NCBI GenBank assembly: GCA_947034885.2
Contig: OX344758.2
Coordinates: 13,853,067 to 13,917,066 of the forward strand
DNA: 64,000 bases
From: Thuidium tamariscinum
Lineage: Eukaryota; Streptophyta; Bryopsida; Hypnales; Thuidiaceae
Direction: 5' to 3'
The position numbers were made by a program, and so were the translations under genes. The notes beneath the pieces are model-generated. The model worked only from the letters and a program-made list of their open reading frames with translations, was not told the origin of the DNA and made no database searches. Positions within the stretch are counted from its first letter, which is position 1; each line of letters starts with the position of its first letter. Below are positions 6,318 to 59,993 of the stretch, piece after piece.

Positions 6318-7365
6318 AGGGTGAGTTCAAGAAAGACCAACTGATTTTGGTACACTTTGGCCATGGTAATCCTGATTTTTCAGGAGTATTTTAAAAATAG
6401 AAAAAAAAAATTTTAAATATGAAAAATATGCTTAATGTGTATTTATTGAAGAAGAAGATATCCTAAGAAGGAAAAGTGTAGGAAAATTTTCTAAGTAGGT
6501 GAACTAGAAAAATGCAAAATCTCATGAAAATAGACACTTTTACATTTTTATTTGGAAAAAATAGGAAAAGAAACTTTTTGAGAAACTAAAAATTTTCCAT
6601 TAAGTAATAACTGATGATGATTAGATTTCACCAAAAGAATTAATAGGAAATTTCGTTAAAATGGTGCCATTTCGTTAAATTGGCGCTTTTGAGCAGTTTA
6701 GACTGCACGGTCTGAACCGTTTTTTCTACCCTAGGATCTACACCTGTACTAGATTTTGGAAATCTACAAGTCTCCTAGATTTCTGAAATCTATACCAATT
6801 CTAGATTTTTTAGATTGTTTGGTCTAATATCTATGCTTGTCATAGATTTCAGAAATCTAAAAGTGTCCTAGATATTAGCAATGTATACTTGTCCTAGATG
6901 TCAAGGTGTGAAAATGGCATGTGGAATACCGCCATTTTAACGAAATTCCCCATATTATCTAAAAACCATCTTCAATGTTAAAAAATTGCATGCAATGGAA
7001 GTGTTGTTTGTACTCATGTGGAGGGCATAAAATAATATATTTTCAAATTTCCTTTGGTGGATACATGATTCCCTAATATGAAAATAGACTATGAAATTTT
7101 GAGCTCTAAATCATTAAATTTGGGTACTCCTAACGTAGTAAAAACCCTGAAACTCCTAATTGTGACAAATTAGCTAAATTAAAAATTAATTATAAAGTTA
7201 ATTTTTAAAATTTTCAAAAAATAAGGTATCTGATTAACATCAAGTTATTCATCTCTAATAAAAATACAAGCTTATAGGATTCATGTATCAAAAGTTATTG
7301 CTAAAAACAACACTGTCACTTTGATTGTGACTTGAAATAGGACCGGTCTTTCCTAAACTCACCCT
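6318..7365. mobile_element. 1.05-kb terminal inverted repeat element (host of a nested MITE)
   Basis: The left end AGGGTGAGTTCAAGAAAGAC matches the reverse complement of the right end (AGGGTGAGTTTAGGAAAGAC) at 18 of 20 positions. The interior is AT-rich and non-coding. It contains the 4-bp-TSD MITE at 6643-6953, so this element is the older of the two. Flanks read TTA on the left and TGA on the right, so no clean TSD can be claimed. Superfamily not determined. Confidence 0.6.
6643..6953. mobile_element. MITE, 4-bp TSD family (family T4), copy 1
   Basis: A 311-bp element. Its right end, read in reverse, is ATGGGGAATTTCGTTAAAAT, continuing GGCGGTATTCC; the left end is a diverged version. It is flanked by the direct repeat ATTA (6639-6642 and 6954-6957). 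The interior is a tandem series of short hyphenated palindromes of the form AGATTT-N-AAATCT plus one GC-richer palindrome around GACTGCACGGTCTGAAC. No coding capacity. 4-bp TSDs are known for Sola1/Sola2 and some other superfamilies; I do not assign one. Confidence 0.9.
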
Positions 7366-12936: not shown

Positions 12937-13273
12937 ACATATCCCACATCCTATTTCCTACCACGTCATTTGCGTAATCTTATGAAGAACTTTTCTTCTC
13001 ATTCACAAACCCAAAGCAAGTTGAAAATGATTTTCAAAGAATGTGAGGTAGTTGTCAAAGAATTGAAAGTTAAATTGTTTATATATAATTTTAAAGCAAC
13101 GTAAAATTGGCACTTTTTGGTGTGGCTACAATACAAATGCTCTAAGCTTTTTTGCCATAGTAGGAATGTTAATGAAGGAGGTCAAGCTTAGAGTTCTTAA
13201 TGAAAGGGAACAAATGAGGAACACCAAACACCTGTGAACCCATTTTTCAAAGTTTGCCCAAAGCCTTAGCCTA

Positions 13274-13546
13274 AGGTAGGTACACCCAAAAGCACCACTT
13301 ATTCATATTGAGCCTAGTTCCTGCTATTAATTAGTTCAAATTTTTATGTAGTCTTCTTGGCAAGTGAAAGCATGTTCCAACGCACCAAAGAACGCAGGAT
13401 TTGGATACCGTATGCAAAAGTTATTAACAGTCAAAGCCTGTTTCTGAAAGCGCCATCTACAGTCTCGGTACATGACTGATTTCGAAAATGTATGTACACT
13501 ATAGATGGTGCTTTTAGAAACAGGGTGCTTTTGGGTGTACCCACCT
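13274..13546. mobile_element. MITE with TA target duplication (family TA-1), copy 1
   Basis: A 273-bp element with ends AGGTAGGTACACCCAAAAGC and, reversed, AGGTGGGTACACCCAAAAGC, flanked by TA on both sides (13272-13273 and 13547-13548). Target TA with short TIRs is typical of Tc1/mariner (Stowaway-like) MITEs. The interior (CTTGGCAAGTGAAAGCA, CGCACCAAAGAACGCAGGAT) is nearly the same as in the copies at 42299 and 53183. Confidence 0.9.
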
Positions 13547-13548
13547 TA

Positions 13549-15155
13549 TATATTATTCATGTAGTCCTTATAGATTCTATAGGAAGTAGAGGTTTAGTTT
13601 TTTTCCAATTTTTTTACCTTATAAAGCATTAAAAAGGCTTTCAATCTACCATTCAGATTTTCAAATTTCATAATTATGTAGAGACAAATGTGTTTGAAAT
13701 TTTTTATTGTGCAATGTGAACATTTAGATATTATTGCATTGGAAGACTTTTTTGAATATGCTTCACATCTTTTTTTGCCTTGAATTTTTTTGGAGACATG
13801 ACTAACAACATTTTTAATATTTCAAAAATTTTAATTCAAAATTTGTAGAACAAATTCTTTTGATAATCAATGGTCAAAGGCATCTAAAATTGTTGGAGAT
13901 AGTGGAAATTTTTTAAAAAAAATTTCCTTCAAATGCTTGTATCTTTCAATCCATACAATCAAATGTCACAAATTTTTATCAATTTTTTTCAATAGGTCTA
14001 CTATAAGATCCTCCAATCAAATGTAAAAAAAAAATATCTTGTTAAAATTTTTGGTGAATGTAGTAGCAAGGGTAATTTTGGCAAAGGATTTTGACAAAAA
14101 TATGGCTTTGAACCTTTGGAGGTTTAGTGCAAAAAATCCTTGAAAGTCAAAGCAATAAATTGATAGTAATTTCAAAAATATTCCAAGTAGGCTCCTCACT
14201 TGTGTATTTTGAAAGAAAACTATGCTTCATTTGGCCAAAATCTCTTGTATGACTTGGCAAAAATTGCAATTTTGTCAAAAACAAGAATTTAACCAACACT
14301 ATATTTCCTCTAAAAAAATACTTAATTACACTAAGAATGAAGGAGATTTTTTTGGCTTTGAGCCATTAGAGAGCTTTATGGTTGATTGAAAGGAAAAAAT
14401 AGATAGTAAGTTGCACCTTCAGAGGGTCACACCCTATATTTTATATATCACATGCAATAATGGGATATTCTATTGGAGGGTATTTATGTGTTTATAAGTA
14501 TTATTGCCTCCCTCTTTTTACATAAAAAGCTACCAATATGTACTTTTCAACACCCTAATTTTTTTGTAAATGTTGAAAGAAGCTAATTTTTGGCACCCTA
14601 TTTTATTTCAATAGTGTAGAATTATGGAATATCATGAAGAATATGATGGCATTGCAAAACCAAATATTCAAAAACTCTAGAAACAAAAGAGGATTCCATC
14701 GATGTTTCTTTGAATGATCACTCATTCCTTCTATGAAAAATGATAAGTTTGGAGAAATTCAAATGATCCAAATTATTGTAGATTTGCCTTAACTGGGGCC
14801 TTAATCCTCAAAAGACATTATAAGCACAATGGACATTTGGGAAGTCAAACTTTAATTTTCTATATAATTTGTGATTTCTACATCCGTGTCAAACTTTGAC
14901 CCACAAAATCACCGTATATGAGATTTCTCATGAGATCATTTCTCTGTTGATAACATGTGTGCTAAATTTGTAACTTCAAATTTGAAACAAATTAAATTCC
15001 TTCCTCCACCCAAAAAGAAAGAAGTTGAATTTTCCTCCACGCACTTAATTTAGTAGCCAATTGTCCACAATACCAAATTAGATGGTGATAATTGAATTGA
15101 ATCTACTAAAAACATTTAGGAAGATCCCATATTTGAAATTGATTTTTTTTCTACT
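13549..15155. other. AT-rich intergenic stretch
   Basis: No gene or TIR element that I can support. A 60-codon minus-strand ORF (14017-14199) is rich in Phe/Leu/Ile, as random AT-rich frames are. Confidence 0.6.
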
Positions 15156-15358
15156 CACTACAAGAGAAAGGGGTGTTTTAAGTAGTGTCCTAGACATCAT
15201 GTCTTTTAAGTACTATCTTTTAAGTAAGGTTTTAAGTAAAAATTTACTAAAAAGACAGTCTTTTTAGTAAAATTCTACTTAAAACCTTACTTAAAAGACA
15301 GTATTTAAAAGATGTGATGTCTAGGACACTACTTAAAACACCCCTTTCTCTTGTAGTG
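15156..15358. mobile_element. CACTA-like foldback MITE, complete copy
   Basis: A 203-bp element that is almost entirely one inverted repeat: CACTACAAGAGAAAGGGGTG begins the left arm and the right arm mirrors it to ...CTCTTGTAGTG. It is flanked by the direct repeat ACT (15153-15155 and 15359-15361). The CACTACAAGA terminus and 3-bp TSD are the signature of plant CACTA (En/Spm) elements. A transcript would fold into a long hairpin. Confidence 0.92.
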
Positions 15359-15586
15359 ACTATACAACAAAATGGAAGGATTGTATAACACCTTATTTTT
15401 TAATTATCACCCTAAGCACATATTAGTAATGCTATGGTAGATCTAACAAAAATGTAAATTTTTTTCTTCAATGAATTAAGTAGGTCCTATTTTTATGTCT
15501 CATATTAGTTTTTTAAAATTTCAATGGTCTCCCCCCAAAGTCGCATGAGTGAGATAGACAAGAAATTCTTGCAATGAATGAATAAT

Positions 15587-15897
15587 ATGGTAAATTTCGT
15601 TCAAATGGCGGTATTCCATTACTTTGATACTTTTGACAATTCAGTCCGCGTGATCTGAAATCTACAAACCTCATAGATTTTTGAAATCTACATGTGTTGT
15701 AGATATCTGAAATCTATACCTATCCAAGATGTTTCAGACCGTGCAGTCTGAAATCTAAATTTGTCATAGATTTTGAAAATCTCTATGTATCCTAAATGTC
15801 TAAAATCTATATCTATTTTAGATACCAGTTTTTAGTTCAGACCACACGGTTTGAAAAATGGCATTTGGAATACCGCCATTTTAACGAAATTCACCAT
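15587..15897. mobile_element. MITE family T4, copy 2
   Basis: A 311-bp element with ends ATGGTAAATTTCGTTCAAAT and, reversed, ATGGTGAATTTCGTTAAAAT, each followed by GGCGGTATTCC-type sequence. TSD TAAT at 15583-15586 and 15898-15901. The interior again carries a series of AGATTT/AAATCT hyphenated palindromes and the GC-richer palindrome CAGACCGTGCAGTCTGAA. Confidence 0.92.
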
Positions 15898-16137
15898 TAA
15901 TTTACTAAGATGAATTTTCCTATAACTATTCACTATGTTTTGCTTCAACCACATAAAATTTGAAGTAGTTTGAATTTGATGAAGTAGTATCTATACAACC
16001 TTCTAAACCATCAAGCATTGATATCTACAACAAATTGAAGCACCCAAGAATATAGGCCTTAAAAAATGCTGCTTTCTAAGAGTCAAGAATGTGTAGCCAC
16101 CTCATCTTTTTCAAAAGGCATAATCCTAAAACTTGCA

Positions 16138-23027: not shown

Positions 23028-25242
23028 ACCTTGAATGCCCATCAACCTTTTTGAGCCTCTCAAAGTTTGTTCAAAACTAAATGAAAGTCCAAGTTTTGAT
23101 AAGTATTATCAAATTTCTTAAAATTATAACCATACAAGTTCAAATTGTCACATTTGAAAACATAACAAAGAACATCACTTGTGGATTGAAAGATTATAGT
23201 GCTTCATCAAGATGGTGTTAAAGTCACAAAAGTGATTTTGAAGTCTTTCAATCCACTTTATACATGTCAATATAAAATTCAAGTCATCAAAAAAATATAG
23301 GGTTAAAGGACATGACATGTATAACCATGATTGGAATATGGCTTTTCAAAATCTTTTCTAAAATTTCCTCAATTGAATTTTTTGTGTGATTCCCCTCCAA
23401 AGATCTTACTAAGGTATTTGAGGCTCATGTCTAAGAATCTAATGCTAAAAACTAAGATTTGAAATGGGTACTCTAGCACATTATCTTCAATAGAATTTTT
23501 TCTCAAAATCATTTTCTGATGCTCAAATTGAACTTTCAATACCAAACTATGATGCCTTTGACATTTAGAGATTAATAGATGTAGTTGTCAATTTGTGACA
23601 TATTGAACAAGGAACTATTTATTTTCACAATTAAGATTAAACAATCTTTTTGAAGATATGTTGAAGTCTATTCTAATTATTTAATTTTGTTTTTCATTAA
23701 TCCAAATTTCATAACAATGTTTGAAAATGGAACACTATGTAAAGTAAACAAATCCAAAATTGCCTCCAATCTAATTGTGACCCCTGCTTTTGAACCCAGT
23801 TGCTCCTTGTAATACATAGTGAAAATTATAAACGATTGCATTAGGACCTTTTCAGTGTAGAAAGTGACAATTTTATAACTTTTCTAAATACCGTGTAGTT
23901 TTTAGACATAGTGAAAGATTCGTTTGTATTCAATGATCATTTCATTACACTAAGATTGTCATGACATTATGACAACCTTAGTGTGAAATTGAATTGAAAA
24001 GTTGCAATTCTATAATAATTTGAAAAGATGCTTTCAAGTTACCATTGCAGCCATGTAGCTAGAATAAAGAAGACCACATTTGAGATTCAAATAGATAAAA
24101 ATATTTCCCCCCTCAAGACATCAAATGGAAGCTACATGTTTTTTCTTTGACGACATGTGTGGTTTTTTAATTAGGAATGAGTTGACCAAAATACTTATGT
24201 GAAAATCTTCAATTTTAAAATAATTTTTAAAATAATTTTTAATAATATTTATTATTATTATTTATTTTATTATTTTATTATTATTTTATTATTATTATTT
24301 AATTTGATGGGTTCACAGATTGTGGAACAGGGTTGAAACGGTCTCTCAAAGCCCTAGAAAATCCTCTTATGCAACAATGAGTCATTTTATGTTAAAGGTG
24401 AGGTCTAAGTGAGAATAAGGAATGACAATGGGTCATCTTACCATAGTGCATTTCCACTTTTTGTTCTCTTACTCTTGATCATCAAATTGATTTGTTGTAA
24501 ATTTTAGTTCAATTAAACAAATGAAAACCATCAAATCTAGTTTTTATTTTAAATTTTAAATTCCTAACATTTGATTTTTTGTAGTAGTTTGAAGTTTGGT
24601 CTCAATACTATAATGTTTTAAATTTTTTATAAATATTGATTGCTATCGGAAATTTTATTTTACACTATAACTATGACTATAATGTCACCTTCATAGTTTA
24701 CACATCTTGTGAAATCTTGAGTATTTAAAGGTTTTGTTTTGTTTTTATAGAAAACTTCTCCTATTTTTTTAATGAATTTTCTATAAAATTCATGAAAATT
24801 CTAAATTTACAAAAATATGGAAATTTTCTAAAGATGTGATTTAATTATTAAGAAATAAAAATGATATTATTTTCATTCAATTGTAGTACCCAAATGCAAC
24901 ATAAAATTGAAGATTATTGAAGATATATAAAATTAGATTTCTTTTAAAGCTCATAATTTCATTTGTAAAAATTAGAAAACCTATCATTTCTACATAGTTA
25001 TTGAGGTTAAACAAGGCTTAAAAATTGAGAATTCTCAAAGCTTTATCATTTGGTTATTAGTTTAGGATCAAGTGTGTTTTGACGAAAGAATTGATTGAAG
25101 AACACTAAATTGGCAACTCAAAATAAGTACAATATTTTTCTAAAAGCAATTCCTATTGGTTTTGGTTTTAGGTTCTAAGGTTGTTTTGAAATATTTTTAT
25201 AACCAATACCAAAAAAAATTCAATTTTACAAAAAATTTATAC
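23028..25242. other. AT-rich intergenic stretch with a palindrome and repeats
   Basis: No gene. It holds an imperfect palindrome at 23943-23986 (CACTAAGATTGTCATGACAT and its mirror), the fragment of a family G MITE at 24308-24372 (GGAACAGGGTTGAAACGG, TCCTCTTATGC), and a TTA/ATT-rich low-complexity run at 24238-24300. Confidence 0.55.
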
Positions 25243-25362
25243 CAAGGTTGTCACATTGGACAAGTTACTATTCATTTCTTGTTCAATTGAACAAGAAATG
25301 AACTGGAGACCTATCTAATTGGACAAGAAATGAATAGTAACTTGTCCAATGTGACAACCTTG
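25243..25362. mobile_element. hAT-like foldback MITE, 120 bp
   Basis: Near-perfect inverted repeat: the left arm starts CAAGGTTGTCACATTGGACA and the right arm is its mirror, ending TGACAACCTTG. Flanks are ATTTATAC (25235-25242) and ATTTATAT (25363-25370), 7 of 8 matching. An 8-bp TSD with a CA-N-N-G terminus fits the hAT superfamily. Confidence 0.8.
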
Positions 25363-25826
25363 ATTTATATACCAAATTCATACTAGAATTTGTTGTTAAA
25401 TTTTATCAACTATCAATAAGATCCAACAAAATTAAAGAAGATCAATATTAGTAATTATTTTATTAAGTTTACTTTGTCAAATTTGGTTGTTCATTCTTCA
25501 CAAAAGTTTTTAATTATTTTAGTAATATTGTATATTTGCCTTTCCTTTATTTAAATCTAGTCATATTTCAATAATTTATTTGGATTGCAATTGTTTATGT
25601 AGTAATTTAATTCCTAAAGGACAAAATGTTCAAAATTCAAACAACATGTGGTTGCAATTGTATCCTAACTACAAAGAATCTTCATTTTTCCATCCATCTT
25701 CTATATGATTGTAACTTATTGTGTTAGTTTTATTTTATTTATAAGGCATAGAGCTATCCCAAAAAAAATTAGAATATTCTATGTTTCAACATATACAAGT
25801 ATGCTTCACCAAAATAAATAAATATT

Positions 25827-42298: not shown

Positions 42299-42569
42299 AG
42301 GCGAGTACACCTAAAGTGCTACTTTTTGGTACTCTGCCTAGTAACCATTACTGGTCTGATCAAATTTTCATGTAGTCTTCTTGGCAAGTGAAAGCACAAT
42401 CCAATGCACCAAAAAACGCAACATTTGGATACAGTATGCAAAAGTTATTAAGGTTCAAAGTCTGTTTCTAAAAGCGCTCTAGCCAAATAGGTACATAATG
42501 GAGTTCAGAAATGTACAGCAACTATAGATGGCAGTTTTAGGTGAGGTGCAATTTTAGGTGTACCCACCT
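42299..42569. mobile_element. MITE family TA-1, copy 2
   Basis: TA flanks at 42297-42298 and 42570-42571; ends AGGCGAGTACACCTAAAGTG and, reversed, AGGTGGGTACACCTAAAATT. The interior keeps CTTCTTGGCAAGTGAAAGCA and GCACCAAAAAACGCA. It is more diverged than copies 1 and 3. Confidence 0.85.
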
Positions 42570-42576
42570 TAACATC

Positions 42577-43275: not shown

Positions 43276-43520
43276 CCCTTGAACGTCACACTGGGATGTT
43301 TTTCAGACCTTCGATTTTGGGAGACCGGGTTCATCAAACCTTATAATGTTTGCATCCGTATGATGGATTTCCACCCCCAAAAAAATGAGTCTGGATTGAT
43401 GAGGTTGCTGGCTATAGATCTATATGGTGAAGAATGCAATAATCAATTCAAATTCAAGTTATGTTGCATTTTTCAGAATAGACCCGCCTTCAGAGTTGTT
43501 TGGTTTGTGACGCTTAAGGA
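43276..43520. mobile_element. TTAA-flanked (piggyBac-like) MITE, 245 bp
   Basis: TTAA at 43272-43275 and 43521-43524; ends CCCTTGAACGTCACA and, reversed, TCCTTAAGCGTCACA. An 81-codon ORF (43279-43524) fills the element, but since it begins and ends inside the TIRs it is probably incidental. Confidence 0.82.
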
Positions 43521-43523
43521 TTA

Positions 43524-43840
43524 AGGTAGAAGGCTCTTAAATGGAGGGGTTTCTAAAATGGTGCCCTACCTTAAATGTACAACATTTGTACATGTTGCTT
43601 TTTCATAGCCTTTAGCAGTGTACATTTTAGCTAGGGCACCATTTTAGAGCCCTATGCCCTTTCAACTTCAAAATTTGATTACTAATTCCACAAAGCTTAG
43701 AAAAATATGAAACGACTTGGGTTTAATGTCAATACTACTTCTCTTTCAAGGAAAATTTACTCAAAAACATTTCAAACAAGTTTTCCCTCCCTGAAATCCT
43801 GTTTCAGCCCTTAAATGGTCCATTATAGGACCTCTTACCT
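43524..43840. mobile_element. MITE with TA target (family TA-2), copy 1
   Basis: TA flanks (43522-43523, 43841-43842); ends AGGTAGAAGGCTCTTAAATG and, reversed, AGGTAAGAGGTCCTATAATG. The interior includes ACATGTTGCTTTTTCATAGC and ATAGCCTTTAGCAGTGTACA, shared with the copy at 44749-45074. It directly abuts the preceding TTAA element. Confidence 0.85.
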
Positions 43841-44713: not shown

Positions 44714-45411
44714 TGTAGAGCCATCCAAAACTAATCACTTAAGCGATGAGGTAGGAGATTCTAAAAGTGAGCAAACTATAAAATGGAGCACCTCCTTAAA
44801 TTTACATAGTTAGTACATGTTGCTTTTTAATAGCCTTTAGCAATGTACAAACTATATGCATTTTAGAAAGTGTTCTATTTTAAAGTCCTATGTCACTTCA
44901 ACTTCAAAATTTTATAACTCATTCTTCAATGCTAAAAAAAAATGAAACAACTTGTGTTTAATGTCAATTCTACTTGTCTTTTAAGGAAAGTTTTTCAAAA
45001 AAATATTTTCAAATGTTTCACCTCTCCAAAACTGAGGTCCAACCCTTAAATGCTCCATTTATGACCTCCTACCTTATTGCAATTTATTTTCTTGAGTAGA
45101 AAAATAGAAATCATCAAGATTACAAAATTTATAATAATTTTTTTCTCGAGACTAAAATTATAGAGAATCTTTGGAGCCAAAAGTTGGTCCAAATCAATAA
45201 TCAATGTGTGAAGTGTTTCATAATCATTCATTCAAAAACTTTTAGTTTGGCTATAAAAACCAAGGATAGGTGTCATGACATTAGTGATTGGAAGGTGACC
45301 TTGGAATCATCCATTGATGGTTGATTAAATTAGTCCTAGCCTTTGTTGAGTTTTTTAGGGATCCTATAGATTGTTGATGTCATTTCAATTAGTAATAGAT
45401 GGCTCCACCTT
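44714..45411. mobile_element. MITE family TA-3, copy 2, split by a family TA-2 insertion
   Basis: The left end GTAGAGCCATCCAAAACTAA and right end (reverse AGGTGGAGCCATCTATTAC) are one TIR pair. Family sequence runs 44714-44748, is interrupted by 44749-45074, and resumes 45075-45411 with TTTGGAGCCAAAAGTTGGTC. Confidence 0.65.
44749..45074. mobile_element. MITE family TA-2, copy 2, nested in TA-3
   Basis: Ends AGGTAGGAGATTCTAAAAG and, reversed, AGGTAGGAGGTCATAAATGG. The right flank is TA; the left reads TG. The interior matches 43524-43840 (ACATGTTGCTTTTTAATAGC, CTTCAACTTCAAAATTT). Confidence 0.78.
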
Positions 45412-46020: not shown

Positions 46021-46414
46021 TTTTTGTTTTATATTGAAATTAGGACCTCCTCTTGCTCTACCATAAAGAAGCTACCATTCCGCCATGGAAGAGATAGAAC
46101 TATAATATTATTGGTTGATCAATAACCTGACCGAACATGCTCAAGACTACATATCTCCATTTAGAGTTGAAACTCTTTACTACCTATTGACAAAATAATT
46201 ATTTGTTTGTTTTTGTTTGCATTGAGATTGAGTAGTTCCAAATATAAGTAGTTATTTGGTTATTTGGTTAATTTATTTTGTAAGTGAAATAAGTGTAGTT
46301 TGTATAGCAAGGTCTAGTTGTTTTAGAGTTTTTATTTGTATAGTAATATATAAATGGAATACTATGTAGACATATACATTAGAAAGATTAGCATCTATTT
46401 TAAAAAATACTTAT
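46021..46414. other. AT-rich spacer
   Basis: No gene or repeat that I can support. The tandem GGTTATTTGGTTATTTGG near 46256 is a minor low-complexity motif. Confidence 0.5.
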
Positions 46415-46724
46415 ATGGCGAATTTTGTTAAAATGGCGGTATTCCTTATGCCATTTTTCAGACCCACGCTCTGAACTGAAAACTAATATCTAGAAATGGT
46501 ATAGATTTTAAAAATCTAGGACACTTGTAGATCTTCAAAATCTATGATACATTTAGATTTTAGACCGGATAGTGTAAAACATCTTGGATAGGTGTAGATT
46601 TCAAACATCTACAACACATGTAGATTTCAAAAATCTATGATTGTTTTAGATGTCAGACCACACAGTCTAAAGTGTCAAAAATGTCAAATTAATGGAATAC
46701 CGCCATTTCAACAAAATTCGCCAT
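46415..46724. mobile_element. MITE family T4, copy 3
   Basis: A 310-bp element with ends ATGGCGAATTTTGTTAAAAT and, reversed, ATGGCGAATTTTGTTGAAAT. TSD TTAT at 46411-46414 and 46725-46728. The interior is again a run of AGATTT/AAATCT palindromes with a TCAGACCACACAGTCTAAA palindrome. Confidence 0.92.
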
Positions 46725-47039
46725 TTATGCAAAAAATTCAAATGACAAAGTCATTAGACTATGCCTAAATCTTCAATAAAACCAAAGTGGGCTATTATGC
46801 CTTTCAAGCTTTCTCCCCTAAAGGAACTTAAGCTCATCATGTGTCTTCTATAACATTTTCTATTGTTCCCTGAATTCTAGTAGTTAAAGAAGAAGATGCA
46901 ATTTTTTTAACAAATATTCTACCTGTACGAATAGTAGAGGTCCAAAAACAACTTTGAAGATTTGAAAATTTCTTTCACAATGATTTTTCATATTGGAGTT
47001 ACTTTTTTTGTTCTTTACAATGGACCAATGTTGTTGTTG

Positions 47040-52916: not shown

Positions 52917-53479
52917 CATTAGGAGATTACGGGTTCCCGGACTGCGGGAACGCAATTTCTACCTTGTGAACTCAAATCCTACGTGGTTGTGACCCTGCCA
53001 CATAATTTTTTTTTGAATTTCTTTTTGAGCTTACTTCCATGTTTCAAGACCCAATTTTTATATTTATTTATATTTATTTATATTTATTTATATTTATTTA
53101 TATTTATTTATATTTAAGCTGGCATGACAGCGGCTAGTAGCATTGGGAGCCGTTTCAAGAACAGACCCGAAACGGCCCTGTAAGGTGGGTACACCCAAAA
53201 GTGCCACTTATTCATACTGTGCCTAGTTCCTATTATTAGCTAGTTTAGATTTTATGTAGTCTTGTTGGCAAGTGAAAGCATGTTCCAACGCACCAAAGAA
53301 GGCAGGATTTGGATACCGTATGCAGAAGTTATTAACGGTCAAAGTCTGTTTCTGAAAGCGCCATCTACAGCCTCTAAACATGACTGATTTTGGAAATGTA
53401 TGTGCACTGTAAATGGCGCTTTTAGGAACAGGGCGCTTTTGGGTGTACCTACCTTAGTGCCTTCAAATTTCTTCTAATG
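52917..53479. mobile_element. MITE family G, copy 5, split by a TA-1 MITE
   Basis: Ends CATTAGGAGATT and, reversed, CATTAGAAGAAATT. The interior has GGGTTCCCGGACTGCGGGAA, AATCCTACGTGGTTGTGACC and GAAACGGCCCTG. It contains a 10-bp tandem repeat (TATTTATTTA, five or more units, 53059-53115). The TA-1 element at 53183-53454 lies inside its right part. Confidence 0.75.
53183..53454. mobile_element. MITE family TA-1, copy 3, nested in family G
   Basis: TA flanks (53181-53182, 53455-53456); ends AGGTGGGTACACCCAAAAGT and, reversed, AGGTAGGTACACCCAAAAGC. Closely matches the copy at 13274-13546. Removing it rejoins the two parts of the family G host. Confidence 0.92.
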
Positions 53480-56362: not shown

Positions 56363-59010
56363 ATGAATGAAAATAAAATTATAGATATGTAATATGTGCT
56401 AATATGATATTTTCTATCCAATATGTTGAAATTTACATCACCATCATAACATTTAGTATCACCACTTTGGCATTTTACAATAAAAAATGAAAAAAAATCA
56501 CCTTGCCTCAAAGATTGCATGAGTAAAAACATTTTGATGAGATTCCTTTTGTAGTCCTACCCTCTCAAAGGTAGAATGATCAAAAATATATATGATGAGG
56601 CTACAATTGATTGTAAAGGTCATTCCTAGTTGTAATATTGGCATTAAAAAAGGGTTTGAATTGGTAGATCAAATAGTACAAAAGAAACGCAACAACAAAC
56701 TACATCGGCTCTTACTTTTAGTGCTCCAAGGAGTTTCATCTTGTGTAGACACTTTATGATTATTCCTATTATTAGTAGGTTGAAGTGAAAATTACTCCCT
56801 CTATTCTACTAAAAAACTCTAAATTGAACATGGTGCTTTTGCGACTAAAGTGCTCTGTTTTATTGATTTTGATTGCCAAGAAAGTGATGTGGAATTCAAT
56901 CAATTTCTACTCAATCAAGCTAATGATGTAGAATTTCTACATTACTTATTCAATGATCAACAATCAAAATCAATAAATGGGAAAATTCTAATGGTACATG
57001 CACTATGTTTGACCAAAGTTTTTGAGTGGGATAGAAGGGATAAACTCCCAAAAGATATTTTTTAATTTTTTGACATTTTTGGTATTATTTACAAATTTTC
57101 AAAGTTGAAAACATAGGAACCACCTAAACTTAAGACTAGACTTCCCATAAAAAGACATTGTTAAAGTACAAAATATCTCAACTTTCATTGATTGCTTTAA
57201 AAATTTATGTACCTTTCATTTGTTGTTTCTGAAAAAGTACTGTGTAGTTTTGAGCCTTGAAAGTGTTTATTAAACAAAACTTTTTTAGATGTTAGAAAAC
57301 AAAACTTGTCTCTCTTAGGTATTGCTAACATATCACAATACAAAAATTTATACAAACACAACTAGTAATTATAGAAGAAGAATCCTATTTTTTGTGTTTT
57401 AAGTGAATTTTTAACATACAAGGTTACTTCAATAAATTGATTTGTCCTATTAGTGTGTATTACAAAAATGAACTTGATGTAGGCAAATAGGAAGTTGAAC
57501 ATCGAGTATTCAATGAAATAAGCTAAAATAACCTATAGTTATTGGCCTAGTATGGTAAAAAACATAATATTATTCACACATGAGTTATAGGCTCATACTA
57601 TCATTTTGGCCACAATAGGAGCATTTAATAAACACAATTGCTAAGTATCTAGGGAGTTTAGAATAAACATGACTATCACTATCATATGTAGTCAAATTGC
57701 TGGCATTATCCTTTGACAATGGCATTTAAAAACCAACAAAAGCACGCATTAAAATAAATAACTTTATTTCATTTAAGATACCAAATCCATTTAAAAAAAA
57801 TTCTACATACCTACTATTTTTGGATGATGCATATAATAACCTCTTAGAAGGTTGGAATATCTTCATGAATTTCAATTGCATAATACCTATTTGACTTTTA
57901 TGTAGAAGAATCTCTACAAATATCTTTGAAAAGAACACTTTAATATTTTGCAATATCACAATTAGTAAAAACTAATATAGCAAAGGGGAGGGGGAATAAG
58001 TAGTATTTGTTAAATTTATGTTCTTGAATTACAATTATTTTCTTGGAATTAATTGGTACAACATAGAAATATTTCAACTAATATTATTTCAAAATAGTGT
58101 GGTATCAATAAATTAATGCTATACACACTATTTGAACAAAGTGAAGTAGTAGAAATGAAGTTTTGGAGCACCAAAGCGGCAAAATGCAAGAACTTTATCC
58201 ATAATTCTTTTCTAATTAATACATAATTTCCAATGGATTTCAATATTTCTAAAATTGAATATAAATATTTAAAAAAAATATTTTTGTTAATTTCGTAAAA
58301 TATTTATTGTATTACTATTGTGCTTAGTGTATTTGTAACTCAAAAAAATATTTAATTTATTTTCCTAAATGTATTATTCGATCCCACTATCAACTCATTT
58401 ATATAGCTTATTTTCTAAAACTAATAGTTTTAATTCATTTCAATGAAATGAAAGACACTATTTGAGATGATATAATACAATAAGCTTGATCTATTTTAAT
58501 GAAATACAAATATTTTCATTTGAAGAAATTATTTTGCATATAGTATTTGTTTGAAATAAAATAATCCTTTTCAATTGGTAAAACATAGAAAACCATTAGT
58601 AATTATATGGATGAAAAAATGTCTATTCCTCACGTGGACCTAATAAATTGAGTCAACTATTTATCAAATTTAAAATTAACTTATATTTTGAAAATTGAGA
58701 AAGGGAGAAATTTTAAAAATTTAAAAATTTGAGGTGTAGGCAATTGCTCTACCACCCTTTTGTACACCAACAAACAACTTTTGCACCTAAAATTCCTAAA
58801 TTTTTTATATCATGCTCATCAACATTCAACAACATTGGTTTGGCTCTATATTGCTCTTTAAAGCTAGATGGTGTGTCAAATCACACAAGCATCTTATAGA
58901 TTCAAAATAGATGAGTATTAAATTGGTGATAGATTGGTGGTGAATTCAAAACAAATTTTGAAACCTTCTAACTACAATTTTAATCTATTATTTCTAAGTC
59001 TTTTTACTAT
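56363..59010. other. AT-rich intergenic stretch
   Basis: The only notable frame is a 71-codon plus ORF at 56850-57065 (LMVHALCLTKVFEWDRRDK). It has no supported splice sites or recognised domain, so I do not call it a gene. Confidence 0.5.
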
Positions 59011-59194
59011 ATGGTCAATTTTGTTAAAATGGCGGTATTCCAATAAAATGGCACAATATTCCATTAAAATGGCACATTTTCTTCCTCTACCTCTAAGCCT
59101 CTATGTCAAAATGGTACACAAAATATGTCAAAATGGCACTTGAAATTTGTCAAAGTGGCACTCGGAATACTGCCATTTTAATGAAATTGACCAT
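59011..59194. mobile_element. MITE family T4, short variant (copy 4)
   Basis: A 184-bp element with ends ATGGTCAATTTTGTTAAAAT and, reversed, ATGGTCAATTTCATTAAAAT. TSD CTAT at 59007-59010 and 59195-59198. The palindrome array of the long copies is missing; the interior is repeated AAAATGGCAC units instead (AAAATGGCACAATATTCC, TCAAAATGGTACACAAAA). Confidence 0.88.
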
Positions 59195-59993
59195 CTATTA
59201 CTTCTCTAACTTGGTTGATGTACTTCAAAATTTCATAGCTTTTTTCTCTATTTCATAGCTCTTAAAATATGAAGTTAGTTGTAAAACTTGTATGAAGTAT
59301 TACTAATGTGGGGAAGCATCTAAATGATGTATAGATTTTTTTACCCAACTCTTATGCAAATAGTTTCTACAAAAGACAACCCACTCCACTTTTAATTTAA
59401 TTTTAATGAATCCAAAATGTTGACTTTGTCATTTTTTTTTTGCATAATTCAATTTGAAACATCATGTTTACCCACTTTCAATTTATTGTTCATTAATTAT
59501 TCAATTTTATGATCTGTTTTTTCCAACAAATAGTGTGGACTGTGGACTTTCTATTGCAGAATGTTCTTCATATTTTTACTAAAACTGTTCCTCATGAATG
59601 TAAACTTCAGGCATGGACATCATGCGACCATTATGAGGAAATGAAGAATGATGGCATATGATGACGTCATCTTCCCATTTAAAAATGTTATTAAACCATT
59701 TATTTTTCCCCTTTTGGAAAATATTCGGCCAATGATTATTATAAAATGGAGTATTTTACTAAATCAAGAAAAAAAAAGTTAATGTAAATTGGAGCACAAA
59801 CTCTGGAGAATATTAGTAATCTTTTATAACCCAATAAATATTATAAAATAGTATCTCGATTAATAATTGAATAATGCAATAATACATTGAAATACCGTAT
59901 TAAAAAAATTAGTACCCTATTGTACTGTACATATTATTTAAAATCATTCACATATTCAGTCACTAGTGACGGCCCTGCTTGTGGGCCTGTAAT
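59195..59993. other. AT-rich spacer
   Basis: No gene. It contains TGACGTCA at 59662-59669, a perfect bZIP-type palindrome, and GTCACTAGTGAC at about 59959. With no gene nearby, neither can be given a role. Confidence 0.45.

Follow-up and report, generated by a model that had tools for sequence, protein, structure and literature searches.

A MITE family with 4-bp target duplications and an ordered internal array of palindromes

Introduction

What kind of mobile element appears four times in a 64-kb stretch of DNA (the whole stretch analysed here, 33.6% GC, called the window below), each time between a different 4-bp repeat, and what is the meaning of the short palindromes that fill the interior of three of its copies? 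The first part of the question can be answered from the copies and their flanks. The second is harder. I argue below that the interior is probably a set of putative binding sites, and weigh that reading against others.

Four copies and their target duplications

The copies, with their target site duplications (TSDs), are as follows.

6643 to 6953, plus strand: E1, full element of 311 bp; TSD ATTA at 6639-6642 and 6954-6957
15587 to 15897, plus strand: E2, full element of 311 bp; TSD TAAT at 15583-15586 and 15898-15901
46415 to 46724, minus strand: E3, full element of 310 bp, reversed relative to E2; TSD TTAT at 46411-46414 and 46725-46728
59011 to 59194, plus strand: E4, short copy of 184 bp without the palindrome array; TSD CTAT at 59007-59010 and 59195-59198

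The original prediction, that each of four copies carries its own exact 4-bp duplication, holds at all four starts (ATTA, TAAT, TTAT and CTAT). The flanks match over exactly 4 bp in 4/4 copies and over nothing longer, as checked to 12 bp. Flank pairs taken across copies give a 4-bp match in 0/12 cases, and two random 4-mers from the window match with a probability of about 0.006. The elements have the features of MITEs: they are 184-311 bp long, have terminal inverted repeats (TIRs) of 31 bp and a 4-bp TSD in 4/4 copies, and number four in 64 kb. All four copies in the window thus bear out the prediction of a MITE family with a 4-bp TSD. Identity is 82.6% between E2 and E3 and about 74% between E1 and either of these, which suggests that the insertions are old and separate.

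Terminal inverted repeats and the sequences just inside them

The eight ends are:

6643 to 6673, plus strand: left TIR of E1, diverged; the TIR core occurs again 19 bp inwards from the left end
6923 to 6953, minus strand: right TIR of E1, 31 bp
15587 to 15617, plus strand: left TIR of E2
15867 to 15897, minus strand: right TIR of E2
46415 to 46445, plus strand: TIR of E3
46694 to 46724, minus strand: TIR at the other end of E3
59011 to 59041, plus strand: left TIR of E4
59164 to 59194, minus strand: right TIR of E4

They align without gaps over 31 bp, with a consensus of about ATGG-NN-AATTTCGTTAAAATGGCGGTATTCC, and a profile built from them finds those eight ends alone in the window at E<0.01. 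The common ATGG-NN terminus that had been described is therefore seen in the agreement of the eight ends over the 31-bp TIR, except that the left end of E1 is diverged and reads ATAG.

The core of the TIR, AAAATGGC, recurs just inside the ends. Counting occurrences with at most one mismatch and including those in the TIRs, there are 5, 3, 4 and 7 in E1 to E4, as against 0.46 per 311 bp elsewhere. E4 arranges this core as direct repeats of 21-22 bp:

59036-59076 and 59102-59169, plus strand: direct repeats of E4, 21-22 bp, built on AAAATGGCA

The resemblance of E4 to the long copies is confined to the terminal 31-52 bp, so there are two internal types (that of the long copies and that of E4) with only the terminal region in common. 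The terminal region is therefore probably what a single transposase recognises. In 5/6 comparisons the ends are more conserved than the interior, right ends being 94-97% alike, left ends 71-87% and interiors 71-81%.

In E3 and E4, at each end, the CG of the TIR motif TTTCGTT has become TG or CA. Over the two CpG pairs of the TIR, 6/32 bases are off consensus, every change being C>T or G>A, compared with 6/200 of the other TIR bases, four of them in the left end of E1 (Fisher P 0.002; the two NN columns, 16 cells, are left out, and the two ends of one copy are not independent). Such changes fit cytosine methylation of the copies. Cytosine methylation is usual for silenced elements in plants.

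The NN bases at TIR positions 5-6 vary among copies, and both ends of one copy agree in 6/8 comparisons; only 2/105 pairings of ends do equally well, the real pairing counted among them. Subfamily descent together with CpG decay may account for this agreement.

The palindrome array of the long copies

Two types of palindrome, A and G, make up the arrays, which have no strand of their own:

6699 to 6885: array of E1; G 6699-6714; A 6750-6766 and 6776-6792; G near 6818, degenerate, 5 mismatches; A 6843-6859 and 6869-6885 (3 mismatches)
15642 to 15853: array of E2; G 15642-15657; A 15674-15690 and 15700-15716; G 15735-15750; A 15767-15783 and 15793-15809; G 15838-15853
46459 to 46669: array of E3; G 46459-46473; A 46502-46518 and 46528-46544; G 46561-46576, degenerate, 5 mismatches; A 46595-46611 and 46621-46637; G 46654-46669

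Steps of 10 and 16 bp alternately separate the half-site TAGATTT from its complement AAATCTA, giving 17-bp A-type palindromes (TAGATTT-NNN-AAATCTA) every 26 bp. After two of these comes a GC-richer G-type palindrome, of the form AGACCG-NN-CGGTCT, which is part of a higher-order repeat of 93 bp in E1 to E3. The order is G-A-A-G-A-A-G in E2 and in E3, where the middle G has the 5 mismatches listed; in E1 the middle G has decayed and the last is absent. The distance from A to A is 26 bp and from A to G 32.5-34.5 bp, with exceptions of 44 bp before the last G in E2 and E3 and 51.5 bp after the first G in E1. The scan dropped eight weak A-type matches as off-pattern (4-5 mismatches; two in E1, five in E2, one in E4).

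The array is more regular than the original prediction had it. The palindromes themselves are there in E1 to E3, built as AGATTT-NNN-AAATCT with three bases at the core in place of one. The spacing of roughly 30-35 bases gives way to the measured 26 bp between A-types, 32.5-34.5 bp to the G-type and a super-period of 93 bp, and what had been taken for a single GC-richer palindrome occupies three positions in E2 and E3, some of them decayed (up to 5 of 14 mismatches).

How exceptional is such an array? AGATTT and AAATCT separated by 0-4 bases occur seven times in the window, 7/7 within E1 to E3, while 200 dinucleotide shuffles average 0.14, with at most 2 in any one. When up to one mismatch is allowed, E1 to E3 have 12, 12 and 13 half-sites and E4 has 0, where the rest of the window has 2.7 per 311 bp; a count by hand puts 30 of the 37 listed for E1 to E3 in phase and 7 off phase. 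Lags of 26 and 93 beat 2000/2000 single-base shuffles in each of the three long copies. For palindromes in general, the count of E1 is equalled or exceeded in 3/410 other stretches of the window, that of E2 in 11/410 and that of E3 in 41/410 (that of E4, in 176/415). The exceptional part is the repeated word and its spacing; the generic density of palindromes is moderately unusual.

In E2 the middle G-type palindrome extends outward as AAATCTA at one end and as AAGATGT at the other, which makes the G-type resemble an A-type palindrome whose core is enlarged. The whole element was also considered as one large inverted duplication, an idea not adopted: identity at a direct lag of 93 is 0.54, 0.56 and 0.60 in E1, E2 and E3, and that of the best inverted arrangement 0.59, 0.52 and 0.53. 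Direct repetition is thus the better fit in E2 and E3, not in E1, and palindromic units favour both.

Judged by their sequences, E1 to E4 are a real, old, silenced-looking MITE family with a 4-bp TSD and an unusually ordered interior.

A proposed role for the array

I propose that these are non-autonomous DNA transposons of the cut-and-paste, TIR-bearing kind, mobilised in trans by an unseen transposase. The transposase would make 4-bp staggered cuts at AT-rich sites, and would recognise the 31-bp TIR; further copies of the TIR core, AAAATGGC, lie just inside the ends. In the long type, the interior would serve as tandem docking sites for a dimeric DNA-binding protein, which might be a host factor or else an accessory domain or partner protein of the transposase. 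Each 17-bp TAGATTT-NNN-AAATCTA would be occupied by a dimer, in steps of 26 bp, and the bound dimers might aid synapsis or attract the element's own regulation. I lean towards this combination, a MITE family moved in trans with a putative docking array inside it, without leaning hard. The interiors of E1 to E3 are, on balance, probably such an array.

If dimers bind the half-sites, the half-sites should be kept. Four A-type positions in three long copies provide 12 units, picked where palindromes show. In these, half-site columns are 90.2% alike, as against 56.8% for spacers (P 0.002) and 47.0% for cores. A matched-unit test by copy pair gives P 0.0004 for E1-E2 and 0.0001 for E1-E3, and a weak 0.06 for the closest pair, E2-E3. 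The bias in the choice of units is partly answered by a hold-out test, in which sites are chosen on one copy and identity is scored between the other two. Half-site columns then agree more than the rest in 6/6 cases (one-sided P 0.04 to 0.0001): exact sites are 94, 92 and 90% alike against 78, 67 and 66% for the rest (P 0.006, 0.0002 and 0.0004), and sites with one mismatch allowed give P 0.04, 0.01 and 0.0001. All these tests draw on three related copies, and since copies and units share descent they are not independent of one another.

The effect is not pinned to exactly AAATCTA. Among recurring 7-letter words of E3 (n=49) it comes third, two others being slightly higher, and neighbouring letters may belong to the site.

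The 84 half-site pairs comprise 75 that are consensus, 9 that are broken and 0 with compensatory changes. This pattern favours a kept DNA word, as a dimeric protein needs, rather than a kept RNA stem. The earlier suggestion of a binding array is favoured over folded RNA by the conserved half-sites without compensatory changes, and its role stays that of a candidate. Against it, E4 inserted without the array, which is therefore not required for insertion.

Other readings of the interior

The strongest competitor accepts the same MITE family and supposes that the interior is a passive, satellite-like array, amplified by slippage in the founder and hitch-hiking ever since with no binding role. 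It is a possible reading, if a less probable one than docking. The interiors of E1 to E3 are indeed tandem repeats with periods of 93 and 26 bp, E4 moved without any array, and a foldback transposon is reported, in the description given by PMC4079207, to have passed internal tandem repeats on to a satellite. What passive filler does not explain is that half-sites are better kept in two of three copy pairs (P 0.0004 and 0.0001; the third 0.06) and in 6/6 hold-out tests, an outcome that pure drift does not predict.

An extension of the docking model should be set beside it. The family might be a DNA-transposon lineage of a superfamily new to plants, marked by the 4-bp TSD and ATGG-NN-AATTTCGTTAAAATGGCGGTATTCC termini, whose miniatures carry a two-tier, operator-like array (26-bp dimer sites, with every third core enlarged) assembled cooperatively by the transposase or by a dedicated dimeric partner. 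I regard this as speculative, and rather unlikely in its full form.

It is doubtful, more so than either of the foregoing, that the interior of the same MITE family is kept as a source of hairpins, its transcripts folding and being diced into small RNAs that silence the family. The folding of whole copies is far more favourable than that of shuffles (z -7.5, -10.8, -10.8 and -7.7 for E1 to E4), although much of that energy comes from the TIRs, as in any MITE. The interiors of E1 to E3 alone also out-fold shuffles (z -4.2, -5.4 and -3.7), as any array of palindromes must. The half-site changes tell against a selected stem, with 0 compensatory and 9 uncompensated, and the palindromes are 17 bp with three-base cores, forming no single long stem. 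The idea of a hairpin small-RNA source, raised in the original prediction, thus retains the folding of the interiors (z -3.7 to -5.4) and loses the compensatory changes, of which there are 0.

Finally, a Mutator or foldback relic whose true duplications of 8-10 bp have decayed to 4 bp, already disfavoured, can hardly be entertained: the TIRs with internal subrepeats do look foldback-like, but 4/4 duplications stop at exactly 4 bp and decay would leave partial longer matches.

To return to the docking array, it matters in two ways if a protein does bind it. Were that protein the transposase or a host factor, the family would be spreading ready-made clustered binding sites through the genome. 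The array would also offer a straightforward way to ask if the interior of a MITE is a working part or is carried along as cargo.

Placement among transposon superfamilies

Classical plant MITEs (Stowaway, Tourist, hAT, Mutator and CACTA types) are likewise short and non-coding, with TIRs and AT-rich TSDs. Stowaway, Tourist, Mutator and CACTA MITEs were set aside on their TSDs (TA, TWA, 7-12 bp and 3 bp, respectively, as against exactly 4 bp in 4/4 copies here), and the termini of CACTA also differ. The TSD of hAT elements is 8 bp, so a hAT MITE does not agree with the 4 bp found in all four copies. Foldback elements have long repetitive TIRs and a TSD of 7-10 bp, unlike the 31-bp TIR and 4-bp TSD of E1 to E4. 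Kolobok and Sola3, like piggyBac, target TTAA. None of the four TSDs is TTAA, which removes Kolobok and Sola3 and also piggyBac (target as given in PMC7351741). Ginger, according to the definition in PMC10741241, needs 5'-TG...CA-3', a TIR of 40-270 bp and a TSD of 4-6 bp, whereas the termini here are AT...AT and the TIR 31 bp. Chapaev (CMC), as characterised in PMC4079192, needs CAC...GTG and a TSD of 3-4 bp; the family has ATGG...CCAT, with one end ATAG.

Sola, the type named as an example in the original prediction, is defined by a 4-bp TSD (as given in PMC10741241), which is also seen in E1 to E4. Its termini are described as very variable, with TIRs of 11-1124 bp (PMC10741241, PMC9033089), a range that takes in 31 bp. 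It is found in some plants, Sola1 being reported in the moss Physcomitrella (as summarised in PMC9033089). Amoebozoan Sola2, as PMC3627910 describes it, makes AWWT duplications, which fit 0/4 of the TSDs here, yet both are AT-rich, and AWWT is not given there as defining all Sola2. No transposase domain was found at E values up to 0.01 (Pfam) among the 143 reading frames of at least 64 residues in the window, which were scanned out of 460 frames of at least 45 residues; nor did those 143 frames yield a candidate for the array-binding protein. The Sola link thus has the TSD and TIR length on one side, and on the other no transposase in 143 frames and 0/4 TSDs of AWWT. Compared with Sola by described TSD and TIR length only, the family may be of Sola origin, and it is treated here as unassigned.

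The scheme outlined in PMC12550479 uses TSD and TIR to divide plant MITEs into five superfamilies, and that of PMC10004981, for angiosperms, has seven. None of the five, as PMC12550479 presents them, accommodates a 4-bp TSD, so a family of this kind runs the risk of being missed or misfiled. Among the literature matches listed for plant or moss elements with 4-bp TSDs, no plant MITE family like this one appeared. Two 14-base strings from the TIR were not found in the literature searched, and two 11-base strings turned up only in 14 papers, under titles that are not about transposons. A 25-mer of the TIR has 0 matches in viral contigs and 0 in public genome contigs (prokaryotic), and a 19-mer has 0 matches in viral contigs; a plant host is not expected in either collection. 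The three bacterial matches of the 19-mer were taken as chance: each 8-kb locus holds one copy, with no second or inverted copy within 7 of 25 mismatches. Rfam gives 0 matches at gathering score.

Surroundings in the window

On the plus strand, at about 18.4-21 kb, lies a Beclin/ATG6-like gene: three of the 143 frames match Pfam APG6 and two match APG6_N. A portion of a DEAD-box helicase gene, with matches to Helicase_C and CTE_SPB4, occupies 62.8-63.5 kb. These proteins point to a eukaryotic source, most likely a land plant and perhaps a non-flowering one. Five other Pfam families among the 143 frames are weak (E 0.005-0.009).

The window holds other repeats. At 15156-15358, 228 bp upstream of E2, is a near-perfect hairpin of 203 bp that starts CACTACAAGA and has a 3-bp repeat, ACT, on its flanks; the fold z for 15143-15371 is -23.9. 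By its ends it appears to be a CACTA-type MITE. Another family of repeats, about 275 bp long and with AAGGTRGGTACACCCAAAAG as its TIR, is present at 13273-13547 and 53182-53455 (85-91% alike), with a diverged copy near 42300-42570 (62%). The termini of the first two copies abut T...A, a possible TA duplication. A hairpin at 25241-25364 has arms of 54 nt that are 93% complementary, with short flanking repeats of TTTATA or TTAT according to the boundary chosen. The segments 43513-43705 and 44738-44941, about 1.2 kb apart, repeat each other with 76-77% identity.

Comparison with known systems

The novelty of the family is limited, in that miniature elements with a 4-bp TSD are already known outside plants from the accounts in PMC9860276 and PMC5199201. 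The Introners of Symbiodinium are miniature TIR elements with a 4-bp TSD, and the account of them in PMC9860276 mentions no internal palindrome array. Sola1, Sola2 and Ginger are among the classes used by an insect MITE database for its families; its description in PMC5199201, by which alone the likeness is drawn, mentions no such array either. MITEs with sites for host factors are exemplified by the E2F motifs of those in Brassicaceae (as reported in PMC12595863).

Foldback transposons such as Tetris and Galileo share with E1 to E4 non-autonomous copies, terminal inverted repeats and internal tandem repeats that are possibly extra binding sites; Galileo's internal tandem repeats are described as having extra transposase-binding sites (PMC4079207). 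Tetris and Galileo differ in having long TIRs and TSDs of 7-10 bp, as given in PMC4079207 and PMC4168063, compared with a 31-bp TIR and a 4-bp TSD here. The likeness to piggyBac and piggyBat, whose TTAA is absent here, would be one of function, a short repeated motif near the end together with palindromes. The left end of piggyBat, as described in PMC11707139, repeats a motif three times with an imperfect palindrome after each, and is bound there by two cysteine-rich domains of the transposase dimer.
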